Positions 1-64,000 of a stretch of DNA of 64,000 nt are shown in pieces (within the stretch, counting starts at the first letter, position 1; each line of letters begins with the position of its first letter). The notes beneath the pieces were generated by a model. The model had not been told where the DNA came from. It did no database searches and saw nothing but the letters and a program-made list of their open reading frames with translations. The DNA is from Hymenobacter gelipurpurascens (GTDB lineage Bacteria > Bacteroidota > Bacteroidia > Cytophagales > Hymenobacteraceae). Both the position numbers and the translations under genes were made by a program. The DNA lies in assembly GCF_900187375.1 (NCBI RefSeq), contig NZ_FYEW01000002.1, positions 620,001 to 684,000 of the forward strand, in the 5' to 3' direction.

Positions 1-148
1 TGTCCTCGATGATGCTGGTAGAGAAGAAACTCACCAGGCCCTTCTGGGTCATGTACTTGCCTTGGGCCTGCCCCGAGGAAATGCCCCCTCCGCCCAGAAC
101 CAGCAGTACACAAAACAGCAGGCGTACGTAGTGATACAAACTGCGCAT
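1..148 (-). CDS. YceI-like exported protein (partial, 5' end only)
   Basis: Only the first 49 codons lie in the window; the gene runs off the left edge. The translation opens with a signal peptide (MRSLYHYVRLLFCVLLVL, then a Gly-rich stretch ending SSGQAQ) followed by GKYMTQKGLVSFFSTSIIED. That second part looks like the first strands of the YceI lipid-binding lipocalin-like domain of Bacteroidota proteins (family resemblance, not tested). YceI proteins are periplasmic and bind isoprenoid lipids. The start lies 7 nt downstream of the stop of the haem-binding lipoprotein gene, so the two are probably co-transcribed. Confidence 0.6.
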   Translation of the reverse strand, partial: MRSLYHYVRLLFCVLLVLGGGGISSGQAQGKYMTQKGLVSFFSTSIIED

Positions 149-155
149 GGCCCTA

Positions 156-527
156 TTAATTATTGGGCGCGCCAGCATCTACCCACTTCTGCAACAGGTC
201 AATATCGCAGTCTGAAAGCTTGGCGGCGTTTTGCGGCATGGGCATGTAGCCGGGCAGGTGCTTCACGTTACCCATCAGCACACCTGAGTTTACGTGCTGC
301 TTGATGACAGCAAAATCTTCCAGGTTTACGCCTCCGGTCAGCAGGGCCGGATTGTGGCAGCTTCGGCAGTTCCGGTCCAGAATAGGCGAAATGGAAATAC
401 TATAGGAAACCACACTGGGTGTGGTGCATACCACCTTGGGAGTAGCTATTTCGTCGGCCTTTTCATAGGCACAACTGCTTAACAGAATACTCAATAAGGC
501 GCACAGGCGGGTAAAGGCTTTAATCAT
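156..527 (-). CDS. Small c-type cytochrome-like lipoprotein
   Basis: A 123-residue protein with an N-terminal hydrophobic segment and a lipobox (LLSSC, Cys at about residue 19), so it is predicted to be a lipoprotein. A single CxxCH haem-attachment site (CRSCH) follows ISPILDRN. The later MPMPQNAAKLSDCDIDLLQKWVDAGAPNN matches the usual end of small cytochrome domains: a Met that may be the distal haem ligand, then the final helix ending in W-DAGAP. It likely carries electrons or binds haem at the cell envelope; its partner is unknown. The YceI-like gene follows after 7 nt. Start choice is simple: the first ATG directly precedes the signal peptide. Confidence 0.75.
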   Translation of the reverse strand: MIKAFTRLCALLSILLSSCAYEKADEIATPKVVCTTPSVVSYSISISPILDRNCRSCHNPALLTGGVNLEDFAVIKQHVNSGVLMGNVKHLPGYMPMPQNAAKLSDCDIDLLQKWVDAGAPNN

Positions 528-1235
528 TGAGCGGTGGTTTAGATAATAGAACCCTTGTGCTTCAGCAAAGGCACACAGGTGCTACACAGGCCATCAGGCT
601 GATGGTCTAGTTGAGAGAAATGAAGGAGTTGTTTCGGGTGAAACTGGTACTTTTCACTGGTTAGCTATAGCTAGCTTCCCGTGAACCAACCCGGATTTTT
701 ACAACGGTTGGGTCATAAATACAACTGTGTCGATTGTTTGTTTCAAAACGGGAATAAATAATTGAACTTTTATTCTTGCTGAAACAATCATCCTACAAAA
801 GGGCACTTCTAAAATCTATTGAGCCCACCAAAAAGCAGGTTTAAAGACTGTATATTGCTATTTTGGAGTAATACAGTCCTTTACCAAAAATTGTTTGAGT
901 AAGACTCGTTTTGGTAATATCACTTCCCATATTGATTATCAAAGCTAATTCCTCCGCTTCCCAGACCCTAAATATTCCAGTTTTTTTAGCTGAACTGTAT
1001 AATTCACACGGTGAAGTAATACTTCTTCGCTGTGAACATACATTAGATGAATTATAATTATTTCAATATTTTATTTAATAGTATTAATTAAAAAAGTTAA
1101 CTACTTGATTATCATTTAGTTATGATATTATAAAATGGTACTATATACGGGTAATAGCTAGTAAGTGGTTTGCTCGAACAAGAGAATAATCTATAATACA
1201 TCGGAATGCTACTATTTATTGTTGAGCTCAGCACA
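528..1235. other. AT-rich gene-free interval with clustered inverted repeats
   Basis: About 700 bp without a convincing ORF, much richer in A/T than its neighbours, most strongly at 1040-1230. I see three inverted repeats. First, 847-854 with 871-878 (GACTGTAT/ATACAGTC). Second, 881-889 with 909-917 (TTACCAAAA/TTTTGGTAA, with an inner GAGT/ACTC pair). Third, 1003-1008 with 1031-1036 (TTCACA/TGTGAA), enclosing GAAGTA-a-TACTTC at 1013-1025. A near-match to the -7 element (TGCCTTTGC) at 573-565 on the minus strand could serve the cytochrome gene. The rest may hold 3' ends, regulatory DNA or an unrecognised RNA; function unknown. Confidence 0.6.
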
Positions 1236-2111
1236 TTAGTGCCACCCGTGCGCAGCAAGCTGCTCAGCGGCTATGGTTGTATCTAACCATTTAGACACAA
1301 CGCTTGGACCGCTCAAGTATAGGCATCCTCCTTCTCCTACTGTCTCAATAATGGCGCGGTACTTATCAGGTGGCAAGGCAGGGCAGCCGCGGCTGTACCC
1401 TGCTTGTCCATAGCGCTGCAGGTATTGTTGGCTCACGTAGTCAGCGGCGTGTAGCACCACATAGCGGCGCAGGGCATTGTCGTTCTGGCCTACATCCAGG
1501 CCACGCAACCGGCGCGAGAGGCCATGCTTGCCGTGGTAGGTATCCTGTGTGCGGTAGAACCCCATGGCGGTGCAGGCCGATTTCATTACGTTGGAAAAGC
1601 GCTCCGCGCGCAGCTTGCCGGAACCACGCCCATGCGCCACATGGCTCCGATGCAGGACTTTACCGGCCTTCAGATCCAGCACCCACAAGCGTTTTTCAGA
1701 AGAAGGCATGTCCATATCGGCAACGGCCAGGATACCGGGTTGGCTCAGGCGGCCGGCTTTGCGCAGATTCAGGTAGCCGATGCAGGCCCGCTCGAATACA
1801 GCTAGCCGTAGGCCAGTAGCCTCTGCACCGAAAGCGCTGTAGAGCTCCTGGATTTGCTGATGCACGGCACCAGGAACATTGGGCAGCAACGCAACAGGCA
1901 CAGGCTGCAACGAGTCTGAAGACGCAGTAGCAACAGAATCGGGGGCTATTGCCGAGGTGCTATAGGCTTTTGTGGCAGCGGCAGTTCCTGCAGTAGTTTC
2001 GCCTACTGAAGTCTGGCAGGCTGGCAAGAGGCATAACAGGCTAAGGGTAGCGGCCCACTGTACAGGCCTAGCGGGTAGCAAACGGAGCAGTGGGTTCATA
2101 GCGCGCAACAC
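1236..2111 (-). CDS. L,D-transpeptidase-like lipoprotein (murein L,D-transpeptidase catalytic domain family)
   Basis: A 291-aa protein. A hydrophobic N-terminus ends in a lipobox-like LCLLPACQT, then comes an Ala/Ser/Thr-rich linker to about residue 90. The C-terminal domain contains VLHRSHVAHGRGSG, YVVLHAADYV and SRGCPALP (Cys at about residue 243). This His...SxGC pattern is that of the YkuD_2-type L,D-transpeptidase-like domains common in Bacteroidota, with the Cys as presumed nucleophile. Role by family: peptidoglycan cross-linking or remodelling on the outer side of the inner membrane. A second in-frame ATG at 2099 (MNPLLRLL) gives a more typical signal peptide and may be the real start. 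It is transcribed alone, divergently from hscA. Confidence 0.8.
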   Translation of the reverse strand: MLRAMNPLLRLLPARPVQWAATLSLLCLLPACQTSVGETTAGTAAATKAYSTSAIAPDSVATASSDSLQPVPVALLPNVPGAVHQQIQELYSAFGAEATGLRLAVFERACIGYLNLRKAGRLSQPGILAVADMDMPSSEKRLWVLDLKAGKVLHRSHVAHGRGSGKLRAERFSNVMKSACTAMGFYRTQDTYHGKHGLSRRLRGLDVGQNDNALRRYVVLHAADYVSQQYLQRYGQAGYSRGCPALPPDKYRAIIETVGEGGCLYLSGPSVVSKWLDTTIAAEQLAAHGWH

Positions 2112-2302
2112 GATTCTGCCCGAAAGTCCGGATTTGCCTGTCCGAATACAAGCCTGCTGACTCCGGATTGCCGATGCAAGGCATCAGAGTGGCCTAGAAA
2201 GCAGCTTAGGTGTTGTAGGAAAGGAGGCGACGGACAGGAACACCCAGGCCCGATAGGCCTAGGCCGCTCGAAACCCACCGCCCGGCAGGCCGTTTTCTTC
2301 GC

Positions 2303-2392: not shown

Positions 2393-4252
2393 ATGGCCAA
2401 AGTCGCAATTAATCTTTCTACCGGGAGCCTGCAACAGGAAGAAATCATCGTTGGTATCGACCTGGGCACCACCAACTCCCTGGTGGCCTACATCCACCCC
2501 GACACCCGCCAGCCGCTGGCCATCAATGACCAGGGACGCGGTACCATCGTGCCTTCGGTGGTGCACTTTCCGCAGGGTGGCGAAGACCCTATTGTGGGCA
2601 CCGATGCCAAGAGCTACCTGCTCACCGACCCACAGAACACAATTTATTCTGTGAAGCGCCTGTTGGGCAAGTCGTACCAGGACCTAGGCCAGCACGCGGC
2701 TGATTTGGGCTATAAGGTCATCGACGACAACTCCGAAAGCCTAGTGAAAATCCGGGTCGGTGATAAGTTCTACTCTCCTATCGAGCTATCGGCGGAGATC
2801 CTGAAGGAGCTGCGCACCCGCGCCGAGCACGCCCTCAAAACGCCCGTGAACAAGGCCGTGATTACGGTGCCGGCTTACTTTAATGATTCCCAGCGCCAAG
2901 CCACCCGCGATGCCGGCCGCTTGGCTGGCCTGGAGGTTTTGCGCATTGTGAATGAGCCTACCGCCGCGGCACTGGCCTACGGCATTGGTCTTTCGCCGGA
3001 TGAGGAGAAAACTGTGGCCGTGTACGACCTGGGAGGCGGCACTTTTGACGTAAGCATTCTGCGGATTCAGCAGGGCATTTTTGAAGTACTGAGCACCAAC
3101 GGTGACACTTACCTCGGCGGTGATGATATTGACCGCGCCATCATCGACTATTGGAGCGGCGAATACCAGCTCTCCACAGTGCTGTTCAATAATGGTGGCG
3201 CTCAGCAGGAGTTGCGGCTGCTGGCCGAGTCAGCTAAGAAGCACCTGAGCCAGAATGAAGATTTTTCGGCGGAGTTTGGCGGCACTACGCTGCCGCTCAC
3301 TAAGGCCAAGTTCAATGAGCTGGTAGGGCCCTTGGTGGAGCGCACCTTGGTATCGTGCCGGCAGGCCCTGGCCGATGCCAAACTGACGCCACAAGACCTG
3401 AATGCCGTGCTGCTCGTAGGCGGCTCTACCCGCGTGCCGCTGGTGTACGATTCTGTTTCGGAGTTCTTCCAGCAGCCGGCCAACAATTCCCTGAACCCCG
3501 ACGAAGTGGTGGCCCTGGGTGCAGCCATCCAGGCCGACATCTTGGCCGGCAACCGCCGCGACGTGCTGCTGCTCGACGTAACGCCCCTGACGCTAGGCAT
3601 CGAAACGCTGGGTGGCCTGATGGACCCCATCATCCCGCGCAACTCCAAAATCCCGACCAAAGCCGGCCGCCAATACACTACCTCGGTAGATGGACAGGTG
3701 AACCTGAAGATATCGGTGTACCAGGGTGAACGGGATTTGGTGAAGGAAAACCGCAAACTGGCCGAGTTCGACCTGCGCGGCATTCCGGCTATGCCGGCTG
3801 GCCTTCCGAAGGTAGACGTGAATTTTATCCTGAACGCCGACGGCATCCTGAAAGTAGAAGCTATCGAGCTACGCTCTAATACGCGCCAGGCCGTGGAAAT
3901 CAAGCCGCAGTATGGCCTCACCGATGAGCAGGTGGAGCAGATGCTGATGGACTCGATGACCCACGCCCGCGAGGATATTGCGGCCCGCATGGTAATTGAG
4001 GCCCGCACCGTGGCCGAGCAGATGCTTTACCAAGTAGAGCGCTTCGTGAGCAAAAACGGCCAGCACCTCACTTCTGAGGAAACTACCCAAACCAATGCCG
4101 GCGTGGAAAAACTTAAGGCTGCGCTTGCCACGCAGGATAAGGACACCATTCTGAAGGCGGTGGATGAACTGGAAGAACTGACTCGTCCGTTTGCTGAGCG
4201 TGTGATGAACATCAGCATCAGCCAGGCTATGGCCGGTAAGAAGATCGAATAA
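2393..4252 (+). CDS. hscA: HscA-like Hsp70 chaperone
   Basis: A 619-aa Hsp70. The ATPase domain (about 20-395) has the phosphate-1 motif GIDLGTTNS (21-29), VPAYFNDSQRQATRDAGRLA, NEPTAAALAYG and DLGGGTFDVS; a substrate-binding domain follows (DVTPLTLGIETLGG onward). The length, the long N-terminal lead MAKVAINLSTGSLQ, and PSVVHF rather than the DnaK form point to the HscA branch, which with HscB promotes Fe-S cluster transfer from IscU. No iscU, hscB or fdx gene is adjacent, so the assignment rests on sequence type; an additional DnaK paralogue is the alternative. A strong terminator follows. Confidence 0.75.
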   Translation: MAKVAINLSTGSLQQEEIIVGIDLGTTNSLVAYIHPDTRQPLAINDQGRGTIVPSVVHFPQGGEDPIVGTDAKSYLLTDPQNTIYSVKRLLGKSYQDLGQHAADLGYKVIDDNSESLVKIRVGDKFYSPIELSAEILKELRTRAEHALKTPVNKAVITVPAYFNDSQRQATRDAGRLAGLEVLRIVNEPTAAALAYGIGLSPDEEKTVAVYDLGGGTFDVSILRIQQGIFEVLSTNGDTYLGGDDIDRAIIDYWSGEYQLSTVLFNNGGAQQELRLLAESAKKHLSQNEDFSAEFGGTTLPLTKAKFNELVGPLVERTLVSCRQALADAKLTPQDLNAVLLVGGSTRVPLVYDSVSEFFQQPANNSLNPDEVVALGAAIQADILAGNRRDVLLLDVTPLTLGIETLGGLMDPIIPRNSKIPTKAGRQYTTSVDGQVNLKISVYQGERDLVKENRKLAEFDLRGIPAMPAGLPKVDVNFILNADGILKVEAIELRSNTRQAVEIKPQYGLTDEQVEQMLMDSMTHAREDIAARMVIEARTVAEQMLYQVERFVSKNGQHLTSEETTQTNAGVEKLKAALATQDKDTILKAVDELEELTRPFAERVMNISISQAMAGKKIE

Positions 4253-4456: not shown

Positions 4457-5665
4457 ATGAACCAGCACCTCGCCCGCTTGTATAAAATTGCTCAGCAGCC
4501 AAGTCGGCGCATTATTGGGCTCATGTCTGGCACTTCCCTGGATGGGCTGGATGTGGCGCTGTGCCGCCTGCATGGGCACGGCACCAATACGCGGCTGGAG
4601 CTAGAGCAGTTTGCGACAGTGGCCTACGATGAAGATGTGCGCTACCGCATTCGGCAGGTGTTTGCGCGGCCGCAGGTGAGCCTGGAATACCTGACGCTGC
4701 TGAACCCGTGGCTAGGCCAGTTGCACGCCGATATGATTCTGCAATGCCTGCTAAAGTGGCATATTTCCCCGCAGGAAGTAGACCTGGTAGCCAGTCACGG
4801 CCAAACGGTGTACCACGCGCCCCAGCATCAGCACCAGAACCCTGACTTTCCGTTGAATGCCACCCTGCAAATCGGCGACGGAGACCAGGTGGCGGTGCGC
4901 ACCGGCATCATTACGCTCAGCGACTTTCGGCAGAAGCACATTGCCGCTGGCGGTGAAGGGGCCCCGCTGGCCGCTTACGGCGACTACCTTCTCCTCAGCA
5001 GCGCCGAGGAAGAACGCCTGTTGCTCAACCTCGGCGGTATTGCCAACTTCACCTACCTGCCCCGCGCTGGCCAGGATGCCAGCACCGCCTTCAGCACCGA
5101 TACGGGCCCCGGCAATACCCTGCTTGATGCCACCGTGCGTGCCCACCGTCCCGAACTGGCCTACGATGAGGACGGGCGCTTAGCCAGCCTAGGCCAGGTA
5201 CATGAGGGACTGTTGAACGAGTTGCTAGGCCACCCATTCTTCGCGGCCACGCTGCCTAAAACCACCGGCCCGGAGCTATTTGGCCCCGCTTATCTGCAAC
5301 AGGCGCAGGAACGCACCGGCACCACTGGCCTAGGGCTGGAAGATACGCTGGCGACTCTCACGGAGCTGAGCGCCCACGGGGTAGCGCAGGCAGCCAAGCA
5401 AGTGTTTGGCTCTAAGCCCGCGCTGGCCGTGTATGCCAGTGGAGGCGGTGCCCATAACCCGGCATTACAGTCAGCCTTGCGGCGGCATCTCCCAGCCTGC
5501 CGATTTGCTACTACCGACGTGCTGGGCGTGCTGCCCGATGCCAAGGAGGCCATTCTGTTTGCGCTGCTAGCCAATGAAGCTGTAGCCGGCCAGCCCGTGA
5601 GTATAGGTGCCGGTCGGCAACGGGTGCCGGCCGTGAGTATGGGCAAAATTTCTTTTCCTGGATAA
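4457..5665 (+). CDS. anmK: Anhydro-N-acetylmuramic acid kinase
   Basis: A 402-aa protein of the AnmK family of the ASKHA fold. GLMSGTSLDG (21-30) is the phosphate-binding signature; LLNLGGIANFTYL and FSTDTGPGNTLLDA are the conserved core motifs. The enzyme phosphorylates 1,6-anhydro-MurNAc with hydrolytic ring opening to give MurNAc-6-phosphate, a step of cytoplasmic peptidoglycan recycling. It is probably monocistronic: terminators lie on both sides. The start at the first ATG leaves a short extra N-terminus before the motif, normal for the family. Confidence 0.95.
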   Translation: MNQHLARLYKIAQQPSRRIIGLMSGTSLDGLDVALCRLHGHGTNTRLELEQFATVAYDEDVRYRIRQVFARPQVSLEYLTLLNPWLGQLHADMILQCLLKWHISPQEVDLVASHGQTVYHAPQHQHQNPDFPLNATLQIGDGDQVAVRTGIITLSDFRQKHIAAGGEGAPLAAYGDYLLLSSAEEERLLLNLGGIANFTYLPRAGQDASTAFSTDTGPGNTLLDATVRAHRPELAYDEDGRLASLGQVHEGLLNELLGHPFFAATLPKTTGPELFGPAYLQQAQERTGTTGLGLEDTLATLTELSAHGVAQAAKQVFGSKPALAVYASGGGAHNPALQSALRRHLPACRFATTDVLGVLPDAKEAILFALLANEAVAGQPVSIGAGRQRVPAVSMGKISFPG

Positions 5666-5710
5666 GACTTACATTATAAAGCACAATTAATCCTTCTTTT
5701 TACTATGTTT

Positions 5711-5759
5711 AATGGCTTGCTGCCGGCTTTTCTAGGCCAGTAGCAAGCCGTTCTTTTTC
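5711..5759 (+). terminator. Terminator between anmK and the SusC gene
   Basis: Arms 5711-5721 and 5742-5752 (AATGGCTTGCT / AGCAAGCCGTT, one G-U pair) followed by CTTTTTC. It ends only about 18 nt before the SusC ATG, so any SusC promoter must overlap it or read through it. Confidence 0.75.
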
Positions 5760-5776: not shown

Positions 5777-8700
5777 ATGCCACACGCCTACCCTCCTGCC
5801 GGGCGCCAGAGTCATTGGACTTGGCGGCTAGCTCTGCTCCTGCTTTTGCTTGGACTGGTGCTGCCAGCCGCAGCGCAGAATACCCGCTACACCATTCGGG
5901 GCCGCGTACTGGATGCTCGCTCTGAACCGCTGCCAGGCGCTACGGTGCGCCTGCTCAACACGGTGCTGGGGGCCAGCTCCGATGTAGAGGGCCGCTTTGA
6001 GGTGACATCCAGCCTGGCACCCGGCAACTACCAGCTGGAAATCAGCTCGGTGGGCTACAGCCCCGTGCGGCGGAGAGTGACATTAGGCACGGAAACCACC
6101 GTCACGGTTCCGGACGTGACCTTGAACGAAGATCTGGTTCAGCTCAATGATATCGTAGTGACGGGCACTTCTGTGGCCACCAGCAAGAAGCAGCTCGGCA
6201 ATACCATTGCCACCGTTTCGGGAGAACAACTACGCACGACGGTGCCCACCCAGATTGATCAGGCGTTGCAGGGTAAGTTTGCGGGAGTGCAGATTACCCA
6301 GAACTCGGGAAATCCGGCCGGCGGCATTTCGGTGCGCCTGCGTGGGCCTAGCACCGTGGCGGGCTCCTCCGACCCACTCTACATAATCGACGGGGTTATC
6401 ATTAACAACGACTCGCCTCAGCTGCTCGACTTGGGCGGCTACGCCCAAAACCGCCTCGTTGATATCAGCCCCAACGATATTGACCGGATTGAGGTGATTA
6501 AGGGGGCGGCAGCGGCGGCTATCTATGGGTCGCGGGCATCCAACGGGGTAGTGCAGATTTTCACGAAGCGCGGCAAGGAAGGTAAGCCTCAGGTCACGGT
6601 ATCGTCGCAGTTCTTGACCTCCCAAATCCGTAAAACCCTAGACTACAACCAGTATCCCTTCCGCTTCACCAACACGATTGCCACTGATTTGAGCCAAGTG
6701 CCGGTGCAGCGCTACGACTACCAAAAGGATATTTTCCGCACCGCAATCGGCACGGATAACTACGTATCGGTGACGGGCGGCAGTACGGGCACTAAGTATT
6801 TTGCCTCTGGCAACTATTTCAATAACCAGGGTATTGTCAAGAGCACCGATTTCAACCGCGGGGGCGGCCGGCTGCGGCTACAGCAAACGCTAGGCTCGAA
6901 AGCCAGCCTGAGCGTAGGTACCAACTATTCGCTGAGCCAAAGCCGGGAAGTGCCGAACGGCGGCATCAATGAGGCCTATGGCGCCCTCACGGGCTTTATC
7001 TTCTCTAACAACTTCATTGACCCCAGCCCCGACCCCATTACCGGCCGCTACCCCAGCACCGCGCTGAACATTGCGCGCACGAACCCCCTAGAGGCCATCA
7101 ACCGCTTCAACTTCCGCCAGCGCACCTCCCGCTTCATCGGCGATGCGCAGCTGAACCTAACGCCCTTCGCCGGCTTCACCATCGACTATGTGCTGGGCTA
7201 TGACGCCAGCACCCAGGTAGCTACCGGCTTCATCCCGACCAACAGCACGGCGCCGACCTATACCACTGGCCTAGCCCGCCGCGCCGACCGCACCTCCTTC
7301 CTTGTCAACAATGACCTGACCTTCAGCTACAAGCGCGATTTTACGGAGTGGCTGGCCAGCACTACCACGGCCGGCGGCACACTGCAGTATGAGCGGGCCC
7401 TTTCTACCGGTATTCAGTCCATCAATCTGGCGCCGGTGGTAGAAGTCATCAATGGCACGACAGTAGCCGGGGAAGAGCGCACGGAGCGTACCATTCAGGG
7501 CGCCTTTATCCAGCAGACGTTTGGGTTCTATAACCGGCTGTTCCTGACTGCAGCCGCTCGCGTGGATGCCGCCTCGGTGTACGGCGCAAACAACCGCACG
7601 CAGTTTTACCCCAAGCTCAGCGGCTCCTACGTGGTATCGGAGGAGAATTTCTGGAAGGAAGGTGGCCTAGCCCGCCTCATTCCGCAGTTCAAGCTGCGCG
7701 CTTCCTACGGCGAAGCCGGCAACCTCACGGCCATTGGCTCTTACCAGCGCTTCACCAACTTCAACCCCTTGATTCAGGGGACGCTGCCGGGCCTGGGCAC
7801 CTCTACCCTGCAAGGCAACAACAACCTGAAGCCGGAGCGCCAGAAAGAGTTTGAATTCGGTACCGATCTGAGTTTGCTCAACGACCGGATAGGCATTGAG
7901 TTTTCTTACTATAATAAGCGGGTGCAGGACCTGCTGCTGCAGCGCGACCTGAACTTCAGCTCGGGCTTTCTCAACCGTTTCGATAATATTGGCAACATGC
8001 GCAACCGGGGCGTAGAACTGCTGGTGCGCGCTACGGCCGTAAAATCGGAGGCCGTTACCTGGAACATTACGGGCACGTTTACGCATAATAAGAACCGCAT
8101 CACCAACATTCCAGGCGGGGTCGTGACTTTCCCCAACGGGTTCGGACTGGTGGCGGGAGTTGAGGGTTATCCGCTGGGCACTTACTACGGCACTTACTCG
8201 GCCCGCAACCCCGATGGGTCTCTGTTGCTCACACCGGGCGGCCTACCCCAGCGCGAACGAGGCGTACAAGGCACCTTCGGGGCCGCCAACACGCCGCAGC
8301 GGGCCGCCGATGGCCAGCCCTCGGGCGCGCTACTGAACGGCGTGCTCGGCGACCCGAACCCGCGCTACGTGGCCTCGCTCATCAACGAGGTGGGCTTGCT
8401 CAATGGCCGCCTTTCCTTACGGGTGCAGTTTGATACCCAGCAGGATTTCGACGTGTTCAACTTCACCCAGCGCGTGGGCAGCCGTGATATTTTCGGAGGC
8501 CTAGCTCAGTATGAGCCAGAGCTGCGCGGCGACGTACCGAAGGGTACCAGCGTGGCCACTTACAACACCTTCGATCGGTGGATTGAAGATGGTTCTTTCA
8601 TCAAGCTGCGTGAAGCCTCCATCAGTTACCTGCTCAAGCCCAAATTTCTGGGCATGCGGGACCTGCGCTTTTCCGTGGCCGGCCGCAACCTGTGGGTGAT

Positions 8701-8857: not shown

Positions 8858-10198
8858 ATGCGTCACTTTCTACCTAGGCCACGTCGCCTGCTGGCCGCCT
8901 TACTGCTCGGAGGGCTGCTGCTGGGCACCGCTGCTTGCGACCTAGAACTTGCTAACCCTAACGCTGCCACCGACGCGCAAACGCTCACCACGCGTGAAGG
9001 TCTTTTTGCCTTGAGTGTAGGCCTACGCCAAATTTACTCTACGGCAGCCCTGGAGCCCATCATCCTGACTACTGGCACCACCAGCCGGGAGGTAAAAGGC
9101 ATTACCACTTTTTTCAATATCACCGAGTTGGAGCAAGGTGGGGCGCAGCTTTCCCCCAGCAACGCGAATACCTCGGCCCTGTTCGCTCGCAATTACCGGG
9201 TTGTGCTCATTGCAGACCAACTGATTGCGGCCGCTCCCATAGTATTTTCGGCTGATGCTGCGGCCCGCAGCGGTGTACTGTCCCATGCCTACTTGTTTAA
9301 AGCGGCGGCCCTGGCCGGCGTGGCACTGGGCTTTGAGCAGGGGCCGCTAAGCGCCGAAGCAGCGCCCACATTTGTGCCGCGGCAACAGCTTTTGCAGGAA
9401 GCTATTCGCCTGCTTGATTTGGCGGCCCAGGAGTTGGCCACTACCCCACCTTCTGCAGAATTTAACACGCAGGTAATAGGGCCCGATTTTAACCTACCGA
9501 ATACGGTACAGGCCTACAGGGCCCGCTTCAACCTGATGGCCGGCAACTACACAGCTGCCTTGGCTGCTGCCAACCTGGTGAACCTGACAGTGCGTTCGGC
9601 TTTCACTTATTCCACGCAAAACCCAAATCCGGTCTACCAGTTCACTATTCTGCCCGGCACCAACTTCCGCCCCCGCGACCGGTTTGGCCTGCCTGCTAGC
9701 CTCGTAGAGTCCGGCGACGGCCGCTTGGCGTTTTACCTGACTGGCCCCGTAGTAGCAGACAACAACAACGGTAGCACAGATAACATCCGCAGCCTCGCTG
9801 GCTTCTTCACCAGCCAGACCAGCCCCATTCCAGCCTACCTGCCCGACGAAATGCGCCTGATTCGGGCAGAGGCGAACCTGCGGGCCGCTACGCCCAATAT
9901 TGCGGCAGCCCTCACCGACATCAATGCCGTGCGCACCCAAACTACCGGCGACCCATTTGGCGTGTATGCTGCCCTACCCGCTTATTCGGGCCCGCAAACG
10001 GTAGATGCCCTGCTGCTGGAAGTGTACAAGCAACGGAGCGCCGAGCTGTTCCTGAGTGGCCTACGCCTGGACGACAGCCGCCGCTTTGGCCGGCCGGCCC
10101 CACCGACTACGCTCACTGAGCGCACCCGCAATTTCTACCCATATCCGCAGCAAGAGCGCGTCAACAACCCCAATACGCCAGCTGACCCTGCCATCTAA
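8858..10198 (+). CDS. SusD/RagB-family surface lipoprotein
   Basis: A 446-aa lipoprotein: hydrophobic leader and lipobox LLLGTAACD (Cys at about residue 27), followed by an N-terminal helical region (TTREGLFALSVGLRQIYSTA) and a C-terminal portion with LPDEMRLIRAEANLR and the ALTDINAVRTQT helix typical of SusD TPR-like folds. The protein is expected to sit on the cell surface as the substrate-binding lid of the SusC pore. It is shorter than many SusD proteins (500-600 aa). Spacing of 30 nt from susC supports one operon. Confidence 0.9.
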   Translation: MRHFLPRPRRLLAALLLGGLLLGTAACDLELANPNAATDAQTLTTREGLFALSVGLRQIYSTAALEPIILTTGTTSREVKGITTFFNITELEQGGAQLSPSNANTSALFARNYRVVLIADQLIAAAPIVFSADAAARSGVLSHAYLFKAAALAGVALGFEQGPLSAEAAPTFVPRQQLLQEAIRLLDLAAQELATTPPSAEFNTQVIGPDFNLPNTVQAYRARFNLMAGNYTAALAAANLVNLTVRSAFTYSTQNPNPVYQFTILPGTNFRPRDRFGLPASLVESGDGRLAFYLTGPVVADNNNGSTDNIRSLAGFFTSQTSPIPAYLPDEMRLIRAEANLRAATPNIAAALTDINAVRTQTTGDPFGVYAALPAYSGPQTVDALLLEVYKQRSAELFLSGLRLDDSRRFGRPAPPTTLTERTRNFYPYPQQERVNNPNTPADPAI

Positions 10199-10254: not shown

Positions 10255-10285
10255 CATTAGAAGAGGTGGCCTAGAAAGCTACAAT

Positions 10286-11245: not shown

Positions 11246-12860
<1,615 letters not shown>

Positions 12861-13483: not shown

Positions 13484-13626
13484 GCGCTAGGCCACTTTCT
13501 CATTAGAACCGTCATCCCTTGGGCTCACTAGTTAAGGGAAGTATGAAATTGGAGTGCAAAGGTACAGAATACCCAGACACAAAAAAGGTGCTGAGATGAA
13601 ATAGTGCGCTAGGCCACCTTCTCATT
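13484..13626. repeat. Near-identical 21-bp direct repeats flanking the rplQ promoter
   Basis: Copies at 13484-13504 and 13606-13626 differ at one base; both contain GCTAGGCCAC followed by a TTCTCATT end. They lie 122 bp apart, one on each side of the rplQ -7 element and the rpoA terminator loop. Confidence 0.85.
13556..13586 (-). promoter_or_regulatory. Promoter of rplQ
   Basis: TACCTTTGC (13564-13556) is a full match to the Bacteroidota -7 consensus. TTTTTTG at 13586-13580 may act as the -33 element but leaves only 15 nt of spacing, shorter than usual. That T-run is also the tail of the rpoA terminator. Confidence 0.7.
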
Positions 13627-16825: not shown

Positions 16826-16829
16826 AAGG

Positions 16830-33601: not shown

Positions 33602-33737
33602 CGGGTTGAAATAGATAATTTTAGAGCAGCGAATACGGCATTTTGAAGCCACACTGGCCTAGGGAATGGTGGAGCTCAAGCGCCACTTCATTACGCTTAC
33701 CCATCCATCTTCAACTCGCTCCTTCCCTAATGTGGAA

Positions 33738-39921: not shown

Positions 39922-43818
<3,897 letters not shown>

Positions 43819-52156: not shown

Positions 52157-52660
52157 ATGCTACAGGTACGTACTGGTCCCGATCAACTCTGGGACATCGA
52201 TTACCGCTCCGGCGGACCTATTACCGTGAATGGCCAAGCCTTTGAGTGGGACCTGGCTGCTTTGGGAGATGGTTGTTATCATATCCTGTACGCGGGAAAA
52301 TCGTTTGCCGCAGAGCTGCTCTCCGTGGAATACCAGACCAAAACGCTGGTGCTAAAACTGAACGGGCAACGCATGGAGCTGCAGGCCAAAGATCGGTTTG
52401 ATCTGCTGCTCGATAAGTTGGGCATGAGCAATACGGCGGCCAGCAAAGTCAATGAGTTAAAAGCCCCTATGCCTGGCCTTATCGTTGATATCCGCGTAAG
52501 CCAAGGACAAGTTGTGCAGAAAGGAGACCCATTGCTGGTACTGGAAGCTATGAAGATGGAGAACATCCTGAAAGCGCCCGGTGAAGGCACCATTTCCGCC
52601 ATCAAGGTAAATCTGCGCGACAACGTAACGAAGGGCCAAGTACTGATTCAGTTCAGCTAG
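52157..52660 (+). CDS. Biotin carboxyl carrier protein-like protein
   Basis: A 167-aa protein with an N-terminal domain of about 85 residues and a C-terminal biotinyl domain: APMPGLIVDIRVSQGQVVQKGDPLLVLEAMKMENILKAPGEGTI. The lysine of AMKM is the biotin attachment site. In Bacteroidota such proteins serve acetyl- or propionyl-CoA carboxylase; the carboxylase genes are not in the window. It precedes pyrH but a promoter lies between them, so it may be a separate unit. Confidence 0.9.
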   Translation: MLQVRTGPDQLWDIDYRSGGPITVNGQAFEWDLAALGDGCYHILYAGKSFAAELLSVEYQTKTLVLKLNGQRMELQAKDRFDLLLDKLGMSNTAASKVNELKAPMPGLIVDIRVSQGQVVQKGDPLLVLEAMKMENILKAPGEGTISAIKVNLRDNVTKGQVLIQFS

Positions 52661-52719
52661 GCCACTTTTTGCAGACACAGGTATCCGGTACCTTTGCCTC
52701 CTGGGCAGGTAGTGGCCTA
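52658..52719. repeat. Inverted repeat of the TAGGCC word around the pyrH promoter
   Basis: TAGGCCACT (52658-52666) and AGTGGCCTA (52711-52719) form a perfect 9-bp inverted repeat that encloses the pyrH -33 and -7 elements. Confidence 0.85.
52669..52697 (+). promoter_or_regulatory. Promoter of pyrH
   Basis: -33 TTG (52669-52671), 17-nt spacer, -7 TACCTTTGC (52689-52697). Strong consensus match 67 nt before the pyrH start. Confidence 0.85.
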
Positions 52720-52763: not shown

Positions 52764-53552
52764 TTGAAGTACAAACGAATCCTGCTAAAGTTGAGCGGCG
52801 AAGCTCTCATGGGCCAGCAACAGTACGGTATCGATGCCGTCCGACTGATGCAGTACGCGGAGGAAATTAAGACAGCAGCGGCTACTGGTACCCAAATAGC
52901 GGTAGTCATTGGTGGCGGCAATATTTTCCGGGGCGTACAGGCGGAAGCGTTTGGCCTAGACCGCGTACAGGGTGACTATATGGGCATGCTGGCCACGGTC
53001 ATCAACTCAATGGCCTTGCAAAGTGCGCTCGAAAAGCTGAACGTAAACACACGTCTGCTTTCCGGAGTAACTATCCAGCGAGTATGCGAGCCATACATTC
53101 GGCGGAGAGCGTTACGCCATCTGGAGAAGGGCCGTGTGGTGATTTTTGGCGCCGGCATCGGTTCACCGTACTTCACTACCGATTCGGCTGCTTCGCTGCG
53201 GGCCATCGAGATTGAGGCCGATGTAGTGCTAAAGGGCACCCGGGTTGATGGCATTTATACCGCCGACCCCGAGAAGGACCCGTCGGCAGTGCGCTATCCG
53301 GAAATTACGTTTGATGAGGTAATGGAAAAGAACCTCAACGTAATGGACATGACGGCTTTCACTCTTTGCAAGGAGAATAATCTGCCCATCATTGTATTCG
53401 ACATGAACAAGGAAGGCAATCTGCAGCGCCTCATTGAGGGCGAAACTGTGGGCACTCTCGTGACGATGAGCAGCTCAACAGCTGCGGCGTTAGAAGCTAA
53501 GCATAGTGGCCTACAGCCCGTCAGCAAAGAGACTCCTGGCGAGCAGATATAA
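52764..53552 (+). CDS. pyrH: UMP kinase
   Basis: A 262-aa amino-acid-kinase-fold protein starting at a TTG: (M)[23 protein letters not shown], then [10 protein letters not shown], the acceptor-site region LESKLNV-type ([14 protein letters not shown]), and [18 protein letters not shown]. It makes UDP from UMP and ATP. No ATG precedes the conserved [12 protein letters not shown], so the TTG start is required. It is followed by frr after 97 nt, the usual pyrH-frr pair. An additional Ser/Ala-rich C-terminal tail of about 25 residues is present. Confidence 0.97.
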
Positions 53553-56477: not shown

Positions 56478-57797
56478 TTATACCATCCGCAAGGCGGAAG
56501 GTTTACCCGTTTCTATAGGTGAGGTTGCGCATCGTTCGGCGGCCACCACAATGAAGCCGTAGCAGAACACAAACAAGTTGAACCCGATCTGTAATTCAAG
56601 CAGCGAATCTACCAACATTGCGGTAGCCTGCATGCATAGAAAATGATACACGTACGGATTGCGACGCAAGGCGGGTTTCATGAAAGGGCCAAATAGCACC
56701 AGCAACCACAAACCCAGCCCCACAATACCGCCACCAATGAGCTGGTGGAGATACTGGTTATGCACCATTACGCGGTTTTCGGGCAGAAGACCGAAATCTT
56801 TCCAGCTGTATTGCTCCATCATGGCTCGATAGGTATCCGCGGGGCCTACTCCCAGCAACGGATGCTGCTGAGCTATTGCAAGCGCGTTCTGCCAGGCGGC
56901 AATGCGGCGGGACAGAGAATACTGGTTGATATCATTCCCATCGCGGAACTGGAATAGGTCCCATATGGTGGCATGCACGCGCTGCTGCACCGGCTCCAAA
57001 GTCTGGTAGGCCACCCACGGCACTACCCCCAGCAGGAGCAGCGCCAGTAGCCCCAGCACCAGACGGCGGCGCAGAAGCAGATGCACCACATCCAGCAAAG
57101 CCATAACGTAGAATACCAGCAGCCCCGTACGGTAGGCTAGCAGATGCAACGTTATAACGCAGCTAGCTGCCGCCACAACCAGCAGTACTTTCAGGAAAGG
57201 AGTGGCTTGTGCATTGCGCCGCAGCAACACCGCAAAGAAGGCGGCCAGGGCGAGCATCAGCCCGAAATGGATGTGAAAGATACCGGTGATGGAAGGCATA
57301 CTTTGGCCAATCCCAAACGACTCGTTGGCGGCGGCAGGGTGCACGAAATACTGGCCTAGCGTGGCTAGCCCAACGAGGGCAGTGCCTCCTACATATAGAC
57401 AGCCAATTCCGAAACGCTGGCGGCGACTGAGGGGCACGGCCACGCCAAAGGCCAGCGGCACGCCCAGCCAAGGCAGTAAGCGGTAGGTTTCGTGGCGCCA
57501 CACGGCCCACTCCTGGGTATAGAAGCCACTCAATATCAGCAAGGCGTACAGCGCGGCCGGTGCCCATACGGTGCGCAACCGCAGCCACTTAGCTACAGAC
57601 TGGCCTAGCGCCGGATTTGCGAGAGCAGCAAACACGCCTACCACTGGGCTCAGGGCTACCAAAGCGCGCGACGCCAGCAGCCCGGCAACTCCTGCCGCGC
57701 AGGCCAGCAGCAGCAAATATTGCGACAAACGGCCCGTACGCCACCACCAGTGCCACCCCGATGCATTTCGCTGCGGTTCCATTGCGGGAGTACCCAT
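56478..57797 (-). CDS. O-antigen ligase/polymerase-like membrane protein
   Basis: A 439-aa polytopic protein from the ATG at 57797 (the frame is open upstream, but this ATG overlaps the stop of the GT9 gene in TAATG, indicating coupling). About 11 membrane spans, and a large loop with HPLLGVGPADTYRAM and VMVHNQYLHQLI, the Wzy_C motif pair also seen in the protein encoded at 28500-29786. With the two glycosyltransferases it forms a surface-glycan operon. Confidence 0.85.
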   Translation of the reverse strand: MGTPAMEPQRNASGWHWWWRTGRLSQYLLLLACAAGVAGLLASRALVALSPVVGVFAALANPALGQSVAKWLRLRTVWAPAALYALLILSGFYTQEWAVWRHETYRLLPWLGVPLAFGVAVPLSRRQRFGIGCLYVGGTALVGLATLGQYFVHPAAANESFGIGQSMPSITGIFHIHFGLMLALAAFFAVLLRRNAQATPFLKVLLVVAAASCVITLHLLAYRTGLLVFYVMALLDVVHLLLRRRLVLGLLALLLLGVVPWVAYQTLEPVQQRVHATIWDLFQFRDGNDINQYSLSRRIAAWQNALAIAQQHPLLGVGPADTYRAMMEQYSWKDFGLLPENRVMVHNQYLHQLIGGGIVGLGLWLLVLFGPFMKPALRRNPYVYHFLCMQATAMLVDSLLELQIGFNLFVFCYGFIVVAAERCATSPIETGKPSALRMV

Positions 57798-58849
57798 TAA
57801 TCCGGGCGAGTAGGTAAAGGAACAGACAACGGCTGCCAAGTCTGAATGCGGGCCAAAGCTTGCAAAGGTTCCAGTGCCTTAATACACGTACAGGCCGCAG
57901 GCTGCGCCCGACAATCCTGACAGTCGGGCTTGTCGAATACCAGATACTCGGCATGGGGGCCAAGCGGAGCCCACCGGCCGGGATGCATTGGCTTGATGGG
58001 CGGATAGAGGCCTAGCGCATGCCGGCCCAGCGCGGCGGCCAAGTGCAAAGGTCCGGTACTCCCGGCCACTAAGCCATCAGTAGCCCCAATGAAAGCCAGT
58101 AGTTCGGGTAAGCTAAGCTGGCCGGTAAACTCTGCGGTAATGAAAGCCTTGTATTCCGAAAGCCACTCGTGCAGCTCCTCCCCTTCGGCGGCAGTACCGG
58201 TCACGAATACGCGGTGCCCGGCTTGGTGGAGCAAACGAGCCAGCGCCCCAAAATGTGGAAGGCCCCATTCCCGGGCACTGCCTCGGCTTCGTGGATGCAG
58301 CACTACATTGAGCTGCCCAGGCTGCCGAGCTGCCAGCAAGGAAGCTAATGGCCTAGGTAAGGCAGCAGAAGGCTGGAGTTGGGTTAATGCAGCAACCTCG
58401 GGAAGCGTTAGGGCCTCGAAGTGGCCTAAGGGCCGTAGCAACTCCAGGTTAAGCTGCGCCTCATGCAAAGGAGAGTGGCGCCGGCTTAGGGCCACCAATC
58501 GGTTGCAGGTAAACCAGTGAAAGATGCGGTTGCGGGTGCCAATACGCACCGGGATTTTGGCCTGCTTGGCTAAGCGCGCAACTGCTTTGTTTGGGAAGAC
58601 GTGCAAAATCACATCGACCTGCTGGGCTTGAAGAGTGGCTACCTGCTCGCCGGGCACTAGTCGCAGCAACTCGTCCAGATTCAGGAACGCATCAACCCAC
58701 GGGCAGGCTTCGGCAACAGCCTCAGTATAGGTACGCCCAAGGAGCACTACGCGGCACCCTGGAAACAGCTGCTTGAGCCAGCCCGCAACAGGCAGCGTGA
58801 GGACGACATCCCCGATAGCATCGGTACGGCTGATCAGGAAGGTTTTCAT
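57797..58849 (-). CDS. GT9-family glycosyltransferase (ADP-heptose:LPS heptosyltransferase-like)
   Basis: A 350-aa GT-B protein: MKTFLISRTDAIGDVVLTLPVAGWLKQLFPG is the N-terminal motif of the GT9 family; VVLHPRSRGSAREW and GLVAGSTGPLHLAAALG with the PxGGxxH-like C-terminal site follow. GT9 enzymes add heptoses or related sugars to the lipid A core. Its start overlaps the GT2 stop by 4 bases (ATGA). A longer upstream frame exists but begins inside GT2. Confidence 0.88.
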   Translation of the reverse strand: MKTFLISRTDAIGDVVLTLPVAGWLKQLFPGCRVVLLGRTYTEAVAEACPWVDAFLNLDELLRLVPGEQVATLQAQQVDVILHVFPNKAVARLAKQAKIPVRIGTRNRIFHWFTCNRLVALSRRHSPLHEAQLNLELLRPLGHFEALTLPEVAALTQLQPSAALPRPLASLLAARQPGQLNVVLHPRSRGSAREWGLPHFGALARLLHQAGHRVFVTGTAAEGEELHEWLSEYKAFITAEFTGQLSLPELLAFIGATDGLVAGSTGPLHLAAALGRHALGLYPPIKPMHPGRWAPLGPHAEYLVFDKPDCQDCRAQPAACTCIKALEPLQALARIQTWQPLSVPLPTRPD

Positions 58850-59607
58850 GCGGCAGCTTTGGTTTTCAGCTTCGCGAATTTCAGAAACACTCCCCAGGCC
58901 GATATCGTGGCAATGCTCAACCCCGCAAACCCATCCAAGAAACCCAGCCGGAAGAAGTAGCCGTGCACGAATTTCCACCAAGGCTTCAGGAGCAAATGAA
59001 AGACCGTGACGTTGCGCTTGCCGCGCAGCCAAAGCTCATCGGCCGCGATACTCGTGAAGCGGTTTAGTTGCTGCACATGCTGCTCCACAGAGTCGTAGGA
59101 ATAGTGCAGGGCATCGCCACGTAACTGGCCTACGGGCTGGCCTGCGGCTACTTCATACCGCTCGTGCAGGAGCAGACCCTCCCACTGGCCTAGGCGCCGG
59201 TCATAGAGGCGCAGTTTGCGGTCGGGGTACCAGCCACCGTGGCGCACCCAGGAGCCGCAGTAATTGGTTAGGCGAGCCAAGGTGTAGCCGGCACCTTGCC
59301 AATCGTTTTTAGCTGCCAGAATACTCTGGCGCAGCTCTTCCGTTAGCACTTCATCGGCATCGAGCTGTAGCACATGCTCATATCGGGCTTCAGCAGTAGC
59401 AAAGTTTTTCTGCTGCACGTAGCCTTCAAACGCGTGCTGCACCACACGGGCGCCGTGCTGCCGACTGATAGCCACGGTAGCATCGGTAGAGAAAGAATCG
59501 ACGACGACCACCTCATCGGCCACGCCACGCACGGCCTCCAGACAGCGGGCAATATTGCGCTCTTCGTTGTAGGTGATGATGACGACGGATAGCTGAATGG
59601 CAGGCAT
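58846..59607 (-). CDS. GT2-family glycosyltransferase (WaaE/KdtX-like)
   Basis: A 253-aa protein: LSVVIITYNEERNIARCLEAV, the DSFSTDAT nucleotide-binding strand, LQLDADEVLTEEL with the DxD, then RKLRLYDRRLGQWEGLLLHERYEV and a C-terminal hydrophobic region. These features are those of WaaE/KdtX-like glycosyltransferases, which act on the lipopolysaccharide core. First gene of the three-gene glycan operon. Confidence 0.88.
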   Translation of the reverse strand: MPAIQLSVVIITYNEERNIARCLEAVRGVADEVVVVDSFSTDATVAISRQHGARVVQHAFEGYVQQKNFATAEARYEHVLQLDADEVLTEELRQSILAAKNDWQGAGYTLARLTNYCGSWVRHGGWYPDRKLRLYDRRLGQWEGLLLHERYEVAAGQPVGQLRGDALHYSYDSVEQHVQQLNRFTSIAADELWLRGKRNVTVFHLLLKPWWKFVHGYFFRLGFLDGFAGLSIATISAWGVFLKFAKLKTKAAA

Positions 59608-60432: not shown

Positions 60433-60454
60433 CTGTATGGGGTGGCCTAGAGGC

Positions 60455-62822: not shown

Positions 62823-63434
62823 ATGAAGAGTGCTATTTTTGGTTCTGCACGCCGCTTTGCTTTTGTCTTACCGTTTGTGTTTGGCTCGTTGGCGGCCCAC
62901 GCGCAGCAGGCACCTACTACTATCATTCGCCTCAGCCCTGAAGACAGGGAGCGGGGCCTGAACGGTGTGCAAAAGAATTTCTTTTTCACGACTGGCCTAC
63001 AGGGAAAACCATCTGATTATCAGAGCGCTGGATTTTTTGGCCAGAAGCTACGCCCTTATCTGGCTGGCAACGAAGAAGCTCTTGACAATCTGAACCGGTA
63101 TCGCCGGCAGAAGTGGCTGTTTCTCGCCGAGCGCCTCACGTTTGTGAGTGCTGTAGGCCTGTACAGCCAGCAGGTTCTTGCCAAAACGGAGTATCAGCAG
63201 TACCACAACAACACCCAGAAAGTGGCCGTTGGCGTGGCGGCAGCAAGCTTGCTCTCAAACATTTTCATTTCTCGCCATACCAACGAGCACATACAGCGGG
63301 CTATAGAAGCGCACAACGCTGGCCTGCCGGCTGCCCGTACGGGTATGTTGCAGCAGCTGCGCCCGAGCGCGCTAGGCCTATCGGCCAGCCAGACAGGGCA
63401 GCCGCTGCTGGCGTTACGCTGGAACCTACGCTAG
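62823..63434 (+). CDS. Hypothetical exported protein
   Basis: A 203-aa protein starting at MKSAIFGSARRFAFVLPFVFGSLAAHAQQ, a clear signal peptide ending AHAQ (an ATG 4 codons upstream gives 207 aa). A polar region follows, with LSPEDRERGLNGVQKNFFFTTGL and LDNLNRYRRQKWLFLAERLTFVSAVGLYSQQ, then a second hydrophobic stretch (KVAVGVAAASLLSNIFI). I recognise no family. It is transcribed alone and followed by a hairpin. Confidence 0.65.
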   Translation: MKSAIFGSARRFAFVLPFVFGSLAAHAQQAPTTIIRLSPEDRERGLNGVQKNFFFTTGLQGKPSDYQSAGFFGQKLRPYLAGNEEALDNLNRYRRQKWLFLAERLTFVSAVGLYSQQVLAKTEYQQYHNNTQKVAVGVAAASLLSNIFISRHTNEHIQRAIEAHNAGLPAARTGMLQQLRPSALGLSASQTGQPLLALRWNLR

Positions 63435-63470
63435 GCCTGTTCGCGTTTCCTTTTTTCAGCCGACTTTTCA

Positions 63471-63523
63471 GAAGGAATCCGGCAGCTGGTGCCCCATGTT
63501 GGGGTCGGCTGCCGGATTCCTTC
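63471..63523 (+). terminator. Hairpin after the 62823 gene
   Basis: GAAGGAATCCGGCAGC / GCTGCCGGATTCCTTC, 16-bp perfect arms, with a second CCCC-atgtt-GGGG stem in the loop. The T-tract (TTCTTACGTTT) is weak. Confidence 0.7.
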
Positions 63524-63590
63524 TTACGTTTGAGGATACTTTCTGCCGCAGTTGCTGACTGCGGCCATTGTTTTTTCGTAGGAACCCTAC

Positions 63591-64000
63591 ATGGAATACC
63601 CGCTGCCGGCAGCGGCCCGGCAATACGTAGCCGAGCATCTGCACGACGACCCCGCTCAACTGGCGCTGCAGGCCCGCCGTTATCCTGGCCTACCCGTTCC
63701 GGACCTCGTGCGTCAGATTCAGGCGCGCCAGAAAGCCCGCGCCAAACTGCCGGCCTGGGCCGAAAATCCGGACCTGATTTTCCCGCCTGCTCTCTCCGTG
63801 GAGCAGGCCTCTTCTGACCGTACGGCGGCTTACAAAGCCAGTTTGGTACGCGGGCAGCGTTTGGCTGACATTACAGGCGGCTTCGGAGTAGATGCGGCGC
63901 ATTTTGCGGCCACTGTACCCGAGGTTCATTATGTGGAGCGCAACCTGGGCCTGGTAGAGGTAGTGCGCTACAACCTGCAGCAACTCGGTATCGAGAATGT
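63591..64000 (+). CDS. Class I SAM-dependent methyltransferase, THUMP-like type (partial)
   Basis: The first 136 codons; the gene runs off the right edge. It reads MEYPLPAAARQYVAEHLHDD, a helical N-terminus (RRYPGLPVPDLVRQIQARQKARAKLPAW), then the SAM-binding motif LADITGGFGVDAAHFAA and VHYVERNLGLVEVVRYN. This is the pattern of Bacteroidota methyltransferases carrying a C-terminal THUMP-like domain, thought to act on RNA; the THUMP-like domain lies outside the window, so this part is inference. Confidence 0.75.
   Translation, partial: MEYPLPAAARQYVAEHLHDDPAQLALQARRYPGLPVPDLVRQIQARQKARAKLPAWAENPDLIFPPALSVEQASSDRTAAYKASLVRGQRLADITGGFGVDAAHFAATVPEVHYVERNLGLVEVVRYNLQQLGIEN

Follow-up and report, generated by a model that had tools for sequence, protein, structure and literature searches.

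Short words that flood a whole genome are, to our knowledge, described mainly for two DNA-uptake systems and for HIP1 of cyanobacteria, and the cause of HIP1 is still debated. Here we describe such a word in Hymenobacter gelipurpurascens, in a stretch of 64,000 nucleotides (positions 620,001 to 684,000 of contig NZ_FYEW01000002.1; hereafter the window) for which a preliminary description had reported over-use of GGCCTA and its complement TAGGCC. For the Neisseriaceae, the parts of Frye 2013 (PMC3630211) available to us describe eight uptake dialects that are congruent with the tree and share a CTG core, some members of the family having none. The available parts of Elhai 2015 (PMC4390886) cover HIP1 and the alternate HIPs, together with how these relate to methyltransferases.

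The Hymenobacter words resemble the DNA uptake sequences (DUS) of the Neisseriaceae and the uptake signal sequences (USS) of the Pasteurellaceae in their thousands of copies on both strands, their clade dialects, their shared short core and the existence of word-free lineages (PMC3630211, available parts), and differ from them in their Bacteroidota host and in that two of the three Hymenobacter words are palindromic. With HIP1 they have in common the over-representation of a short word about once per kb and the swapping of words between related genomes (PMC4390886, available parts); unlike HIP1, the word of the window (word A) is non-palindromic, and no methyltransferase is shared among the proteins compared. 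Word A is an over-represented asymmetric octamer like Chi, but its orientation is unbiased in 464 kb and dialects occur within one genus. It is also denser than Chi is in E. coli. The signature of very-short-patch repair involves CTAG-containing words; unlike that case, the genome that holds the window (G000) has no C5 methyltransferase match, and many substitution types underlie the word. The dialects, the shared core and the word-poor relatives match the uptake case best, while the palindromic words of two other clades (words B and C) match the HIPs.

Over-use of word A in the window and in the genome

GGCCTA/TAGGCC occurs 129 times in the window where a third-order Markov model predicts 46.7, and the octamer TGGCCTAG occurs 34 times where 2.4 are expected, with 18 copies on the + strand and 16 on the − strand, in coding frames and in gaps alike, just as the preliminary description had it (Table 1). 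Among the 31 coordinates listed there, 29 fall within 12 nt of a copy, a zone that takes in 4.6% of window positions, and two miss by 24 and 29 nt. The over-use is genome-wide: one unbroken stretch of 464 kb on this contig, window included, has 426 copies of TGGCCTAG against 24.8 expected from the same model, a 17-fold excess instead of the depletion expected for an avoided restriction site, and the whole genome (5.06 Mb, nine contigs) has 4306 (2169 + 2137 on the two strands) against 91 (40 + 51) for the reversed word used as control.

In an alignment of 1310 GGCCTA copies, the added information was confined to about −4 to +10, with A at −3 (0.50), G or C at −2 (0.40/0.37), T or A at −1 (0.59/0.28) and G or C 3′ of the core (0.47/0.40). 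The full word therefore approximates ASWGGCCTAS (S = G/C, W = A/T), asymmetric and with graded flanks, and since flanking information beyond these limits is scant, it is not part of a longer repeat. The 10-mers most enriched over the base-composition expectation are AGTGGCCTAG (137-fold), ACTGGCCTAG (117-fold), AGTGGCCTAC (85-fold) and ACTGGCCTAC (68-fold), the first two being present 7 and 11 times in the window. Copies overlapping at offset 4 (WGGCCTAGGCCW) are common, with 54 in the 464 kb; exact TGGCCTAGGCCA does not occur in the window.

Four of 120 genomes of the genus are outliers in their TGGCCTAG counts, namely G000 (4306), G018 (4554), G141 (4381) and G137 (2587); the other 116 have 16-544 copies, and 22 genomes from other families of the order have at most 126. 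Density is about 530 per Mb in G137 compared with 730-850 in the other three. On an rpoB tree the four form one clade (clade A, support 99) with the low-word sisters G077 and G136, so a single origin of word A suffices.

Codon use does not produce the word, and the codon-aware null by which the preliminary description could have been refuted does not refute it. A codon-aware shuffle of the 59 predicted genes of the window gave on average 1.2 copies of TGGCCTAG (maximum 4 in 200 shuffles) where 18 are observed, and 1.3 copies of the full motif (maximum 6) where 23 are observed. Across the coding part of the 464 kb, the synonymous shuffle gave 18.9 against 211 observed (ratio 11), and 17.4 against 285 for the full motif. 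The ratio for TGGCCTAG is 7.5 in G137, 11.1 in G018 and 11.9 in G141; the relatives G118 and G006 give 0.7 and 0.4. Leucine codons tell the same story: 36% of CTA codons in G000 and 23-29% in the other three lie within GGC-CTA or CTA-GGC, compared with 7-8% in relatives. That composition, codon use or repeats alone create the signal, an explanation for which we found no point in favour, is refuted by the codon shuffle, by the scant flanking information and by the identical motif in four separate assemblies, and we consider it practically out of the question.

Two remarks of the preliminary description held in part. Many copies were said to carry CTAG, and 644 of 1104 CTAG sites in the 464 kb indeed have the GCC of the word next to them on one or both sides; CTAG itself shows no absolute excess, with 23.8 sites per 10 kb against 37.8 expected from base composition (10.0 in G118 and 8.1 in G006), and the sites without the word's GCC, about 10 per 10 kb, are at the level of the relatives. 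The likeness to HIP1 stands in so far as the word is genome-wide, lineage-specific, present about once per 1.2 kb as TGGCCTAG and far above the codon-aware null, and fails in that word A is not a palindrome.

Table 1. Copies of word A in the window. Genes were called by a simple codon-score script that misses some genes; six copies assigned to gaps lie inside listed open reading frames (ORFs). For the full word, the start of each copy is followed by its strand.
Feature	Position	Strand	Context
Whole window, word-saturated	1..64000	.	94 WGGCCTAS, 43 full ASWGGCCTAS, 34 TGGCCTAG
TGGCCTAG	2190..2197	+	gap
TGGCCTAG	2684..2691	-	coding
TGGCCTAG	4712..4719	-	coding
TGGCCTAG	5189..5196	-	coding
TGGCCTAG	5225..5232	-	coding
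TGGCCTAG	5326..5333	+	coding
TGGCCTAG	5732..5739	-	gap
TGGCCTAG	7267..7274	+	coding
TGGCCTAG	7663..7670	+	coding
TGGCCTAG	8874..8881	-	coding
TGGCCTAG	10267..10274	+	gap
TGGCCTAG	12794..12801	+	gap
TGGCCTAG	13487..13494	-	gap
TGGCCTAG	13609..13616	-	gap
TGGCCTAG	19931..19938	-	coding
TGGCCTAG	20665..20672	+	coding
TGGCCTAG	24065..24072	-	coding
TGGCCTAG	29132..29139	-	gap per gene caller, within listed ORF
TGGCCTAG	33655..33662	+	gap
TGGCCTAG	33924..33931	+	gap per gene caller, within listed ORF
TGGCCTAG	34168..34175	-	gap per gene caller, within listed ORF
TGGCCTAG	34287..34294	+	gap per gene caller, within listed ORF
TGGCCTAG	34462..34469	+	gap per gene caller, within listed ORF
TGGCCTAG	40235..40242	+	coding (1312-aa ORF = RpoB query)
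TGGCCTAG	41793..41800	-	coding (1312-aa ORF = RpoB query)
TGGCCTAG	47128..47135	-	gap
TGGCCTAG	50795..50802	-	coding
TGGCCTAG	52657..52664	-	gene edge
TGGCCTAG	52952..52959	+	coding
TGGCCTAG	57352..57359	+	coding
TGGCCTAG	57601..57608	+	coding
TGGCCTAG	58349..58356	+	gap per gene caller, within listed ORF
TGGCCTAG	59186..59193	+	coding
TGGCCTAG	60443..60450	+	gap
Full ASWGGCCTAS, 1-10 of 43	1808-, 2062+, 2188+, 2971+, 4618+, 4712-, 5155+, 5324+, 5732-, 7265+		
Full ASWGGCCTAS, 11-20 of 43	9508+, 10055+, 10574-, 11267-, 12792+, 13487-, 15506-, 28494+, 29132-, 29633-		
Full ASWGGCCTAS, 21-30 of 43	33653+, 33922+, 34168-, 34285+, 34654+, 34736-, 38006+, 40233+, 41793-, 44842+		
Full ASWGGCCTAS, 31-40 of 43	50290-, 52657-, 52711+, 53505+, 57350+, 57599+, 58006+, 59124+, 59184+, 60449+		
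Full ASWGGCCTAS, 41-43 of 43	62991+, 63153-, 63431-		

Three words in three clades

Word A is one of three words in the genus, each specific to one clade. In 100-kb stretches of four genomes with intermediate counts we discovered two further words. Word B is CCTAGG, best written [A/C]CCTAGG[G/T]; CCTAGG occurs 8806, 8591 and 7530 times in G033, G021 and G095 (clade B), and the full form reaches 16-19 times its codon-shuffle value there. Word C, ASCTAGST, occurs 6974, 6129 and 6632 times in G066, G072 and G133 (clade C), at most 1076 times in the other 117 genomes, and at 7.2 times the codon-shuffle value in G133. CCTAGG is likewise frequent in clade C (5585-5949) and clade A (1209-2331), where it overlaps those clades' own words; the other 110 genomes have 63-888. 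Clades B and C, of three genomes each, both have support 100 on the rpoB tree. All three words share a CTAG or CTA core, with one word per rpoB clade, so that the dialects are congruent with the phylogeny; words B and C are palindromes and word A is not. CTAG as a whole reaches 36-48 per 10 kb in the six clade-B and clade-C genomes compared with 2.5-24.5 in 20 word-poor genomes sampled. By eye, no comparable word was seen in samples of about 20 kb from 18 other genomes, 20 kb being a small sample.

The tree covers 49 of the 120 genomes, from 30 loci of an RpoB search plus fetched stretches; the search gave no match in 3 of the 120. We infer that the group is the genus Hymenobacter because its full-length RpoB matches are 90-100% identical and the closest named RpoB among fetched relatives is that of Hymenobacter jeongseonensis (91%). 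In the rpoB of G095, G134, G135 and G014, the RpoB match contains a single in-frame stop, which is TAG in three of these genomes and TAA in the fourth, either an effect of the alignment start or a real oddity, and in G067, G010 and G005 it comes in two pieces, as from a frameshift or an assembly error.

Pattern scans of viral contigs with the reversed-word control (at least 156 loci) yielded no convincing word-bearing phage among the three loci inspected, which were the 2nd, 6th and 11th by word density among the matches listed. One has nine copies within 7.5 kb, a tandem repeat accounting for three; another has five, in a tandem repeat, and the last has four. Searches of titles and abstracts in one literature library, on Hymenobacter and on uptake sequences in Bacteroidetes, found none describing these words.

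Placement, upkeep and loss of copies

Since the gene caller misses some genes, we recomputed gap densities on gaps without any ORF of 100 aa. Called genes and these gaps have, respectively, 0.56 and 3.5 copies of TGGCCTAG per kb in G000, 0.33 and 1.7 in G137, 0.56 and 2.5 in G018, and 0.50 and 1.7 in G141; in clade B, gaps are about twice as word-rich as genes. Density falls from convergent through tandem to divergent gaps in all four clade-A genomes (5.8, 3.3 and 2.7 per kb in G000), the convergent gaps of G141 holding only three copies; with gaps defined by the gene caller alone, this order recurs in G000 and G137 and not in G018 and G141. From the end of the upstream gene, the successive thirds of tandem gaps in G000 carry 5.0, 3.4 and 2.0 WGGCCTAS per kb, and the third adjoining the next gene is the poorest in 4/4 clade-A genomes. 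Inside genes, the codons that hold words are conserved against outgroups at 0.754-0.772, their flanks at 0.765-0.800 and whole genes at 0.83-0.84. Words therefore sit in less conserved stretches, and with word codons about as conserved as their flanks, there is no strong sign that words force protein change.

The orientation of TGGCCTAG is balanced both in the 464 kb (217/209), where GC skew is mostly negative, and over the nine contigs, which disfavours a strand-polar signal of the Chi or segregation type. After merging of copies less than 60 nt apart, spacing is indistinguishable from exponential (KS p 0.14-0.78), so the evenness that a repair range might impose is rejected. Terminator-type inverted pairs were considered as well; adjacent pairs 8-60 nt apart show no clear orientation excess. 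The 20-kb bins at about 20-60 kb of the window, with rpoB inside, hold 8 and 10 copies; one other bin holds 10 and the rest 13-24.

Two other features were seen in gaps of G000. Near C2 302026, 303264, 388951 and 389145, a recurring gap sequence with TGTCATTGCGAGGA adjoins word copies and resembles a dispersed repeat family. At about C2 369004-370849, where the gene caller places no gene, there are four word copies, each preceded by ACGGGCTTTTTAC, in two opposed pairs 1.8 kb apart.

For the origin of copies we compared orthologs (genes from 80 aa upwards, covered over 80% or more of their length and more than 50% identical). No aligned TGGCCTAG site was shared with outgroups (0/50 for G000/G118, 0/53 for G000/G006 and 0/29 for G137/G118, counted from both sides); for the wider form WGGCCTAS, 12 of 158 G000 sites are also words in G118. 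In 129 comparisons of clade-A TGGCCTAG with the outgroup state, a site compared with two outgroups being counted twice, 17 were one base apart, 41 two, 37 three and 34 more, each of the eight positions showing both transitions and transversions; in 9 of the 17 one-step cases the outgroup has C at position 6. A repair bias of a single class does not fit such multi-step substitutions of many kinds, and the plain mutational bias suggested in the preliminary description is likewise disfavoured.

In genome pairs within clade A, aligned TGGCCTAG is identical in 42-61% of cases compared with 21-41% for 8-mers overall, with many other coding 8-mers equally conserved (TGGCCTAG ranks 13 to 889 depending on the pair). 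Three-way alignments are the stronger test because they provide direction and a control. Scored on exact 8-mers in gene set 1, G137 lost 33 of 88 sites common to G000 and G141 against 50/130 for a near-word control (p 1), whereas G141 lost 10 of 65 sites common to G000 and G137 against 42/122 (p 0.006). In gene set 2, G137 lost 30/57 (control 33/58, p 0.71) and G018 10/37 (control 30/55, p 0.011). Word-site loss on the G141 and G018 branches is thus about half of the near-identical control rate or less, and the contrast between branches has p 0.014 in set 1 and 0.024 in set 2. The degenerate word gave the same result (G137 33/89 and G141 10/66; G137 33/65 and G018 8/40); there, a change within the degenerate word is scored as kept, hence the repeat with exact 8-mers. 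On the simplest reading, G000, G018 and G141 actively keep up the word, or did so until recently, and upkeep has stopped in G137, where density is falling; G137 appears to be a natural knock-out of word upkeep. In clade B, G033 and G021 share 76% of CCTAGG sites compared with 45% for 6-mers overall (rank 7 of 1662).

What drives the words

An active word-specific process of some kind is very probably at work. As its nature we tentatively rank a drive by DNA uptake first, a chromosomal binding signal second and methylation-coupled repair third, the latter two being unlikely in that order. The last of these would follow Elhai's model for HIP1: a methyltransferase marks the word, methyl-directed repair favours mutations that make or keep it, a changed enzyme brings a new word, and loss of the enzyme in G137 brings decay. 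Palindromes on CTAG (words B and C) and a density near one TGGCCTAG per kb, as for HIP1 (PMC4390886, available parts), would suit it. We searched five Pfam methyltransferase families. PF02384 matches in 13/17 genomes and alone shows the pattern of a lost driver, with matches in G000 (weak), G018 and G141 and none in G137; yet the proteins compared are mutually distant (G018 and G141 at best 27% identical over 271 aa, the G000 protein matching neither), and the low-word genomes G136, G118, G006 and G139 match too. PF00145 matches in 3/12 genomes (none in G000 or G137), PF01555 in 6/14 (none in G018, G141 or G137), PF02086 in 2/17, none of them word-rich and hence not G137, and PF07669 in 14/17 (none in G141). 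The repeated lack of matches in G137 and the large Eco57I-type enzymes paired across clades B and C (G021/G066 54% identical, G033/G072 50%) speak for the model. Against it, no family matches all four clade-A genomes, and no methyltransferase common to the four emerged among the matches compared (27 and 17 proteins from chosen loci, some matches without a locus being left out). The missing shared enzyme weakens the methylation idea, and the protective methylation target put forward in the preliminary description finds no support; word A is, besides, no palindrome, and spacing lacks the evenness that a 1-kb repair range might select. At the methyltransferase loci, WGGCCTAS was counted 2 times over 10.6 kb of G000 (2.2 per kb overall), 3 times over 11.5 kb of G018, 4 times over 11.2 kb of G141 and 8 times over 7.1 kb of G137; the word-poor loci of G000 are likely horizontal arrivals. 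In the low-word G006 (L259) and the clade-C genome G133 (L260), N6-methyltransferase proteins are 91% identical, a similarity that probably reflects recent horizontal transfer.

Selected binding sites of a chromosomal protein could also explain the words. Such sites might serve recombination in the manner of Chi, belong to a nucleoid or segregation protein, or mark DNA as "self" for defence; each would give a tiny benefit, with specificity differing between clades and function lost in G137. That word sites are lost more slowly, though not in G137, agrees with this, palindromes B and C fit a dimeric protein, and a nucleoid protein requires no strand polarity. However, the 464-kb stretch lacks the polarity expected of segregation signals or of many Chi sites, spacing is not even, several thousand individually selected sites need very weak and very general selection, and the scarcity of copies near gene starts suggests passive accumulation limited by constraint. 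A bias of mutation or repair that needs no reader, for instance T:G repair of the very-short-patch kind, is very improbable. The recurrent C at position 6 in one-step sites would suit it, as would near-words with C>T and G>A, which are often about twice expectation at positions 2-5, an excess that decay products would show. However, few sites lie one step away, both kinds of change occur at each position, and C5 methyltransferases (PF00145) were not found in G000 or G137.

Between the DNA-binding site and the conversion bias that the preliminary description had also named, we favour a conversion-type drive through DNA uptake, in which the word would serve for self-recognition, much as a DUS does, and be driven by biased uptake and recombination. 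A sequence-specific trans-acting factor would read the word, its specificity differing between clades and lost or changed in G137. Word-bearing DNA would be preferentially taken up or recombined in, alleles with a fortuitous copy would spread to other cells more often, and copies would pile up where protein coding and promoters permit, so that accumulation would stem from the preferential uptake of word-bearing alleles; after loss of uptake or of its specificity, copies would decay. The thousands of copies in a single clade, far above the codon shuffle, the clade dialects, the asymmetry of word A, the lack of strand bias, the exponential-like spacing, the tracking of constraint by density and the slower loss all count for uptake. 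So do the many kinds of change at word sites, the word-poor methyltransferase loci of G000 and the competence channel ComEC, a part that an uptake system needs and that all ten word-rich genomes have. Somewhat more guardedly, the three clades may possibly represent uptake dialects of the Bacteroidota, with their own self-recognition words through differing receptor specificities and a recent natural loss in G137.

Several observations weigh against an uptake drive. Palindromy sets words B and C apart from known uptake sequences. ComEC (PF03772) is present in 119 of 120 genomes, all ten word-rich ones included, and so does not single them out, and G137 retains a 743-aa ComEC open frame. Reduced gain in G137 is not established because private words are fewer in G137 than in G141 in set 1 (13 against 38) but not fewer than in G018 in set 2 (25 against 22). 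Word density does not differ between core and accessory genes, being 1.70 per kb in genes with orthologs and 1.75 in those without, where accessory means lacking an ortholog within the fetched stretches only. The G137 methyltransferase locus L293 is not word-poor (1.54 per kb), gaps of G133 are not richer in word C than genes (0.59 and 0.71 per kb), and G095 shares CCTAGG with G033 and G021 below average (25% against 34%). Among the papers that a search of one literature library for Hymenobacter together with natural transformation brought up, no title or abstract contained either term.

If the uptake dialects are real, sequence-specific transformation arose apart from that of the Neisseriaceae and Pasteurellaceae, and the word changed within one genus. 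Whatever the cause, Hymenobacter combines three related words with numerous word-poor relatives and with a lineage whose upkeep has apparently ceased, and permits a clean decision on whether methylation, uptake or a binding protein is what such words require. The contrast of G000, G018 and G141 with G137, G077 and G136 should make the cause findable by subtraction. Synteny subtraction on the fetched stretches gave three genes that are present in two clade-A genomes and missing from the G137 stretch, all three leads only as regards a driver. A 233-aa protein, encoded outside the window at C2:541568-542269 of G000 (L131:1568-2266), occurs in G000 and G141 (93% identical over 214 aa), is missing from the syntenic interval of G137 and has no Pfam match; judged by eye, it may have a signal-peptide-like start and the look of an outer-membrane barrel. 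A 182-aa protein (G018 gene 98) is present in G018 and G000, and a 250-aa protein (G018 gene 167) in G018, G000 and the low-word G006 as well.

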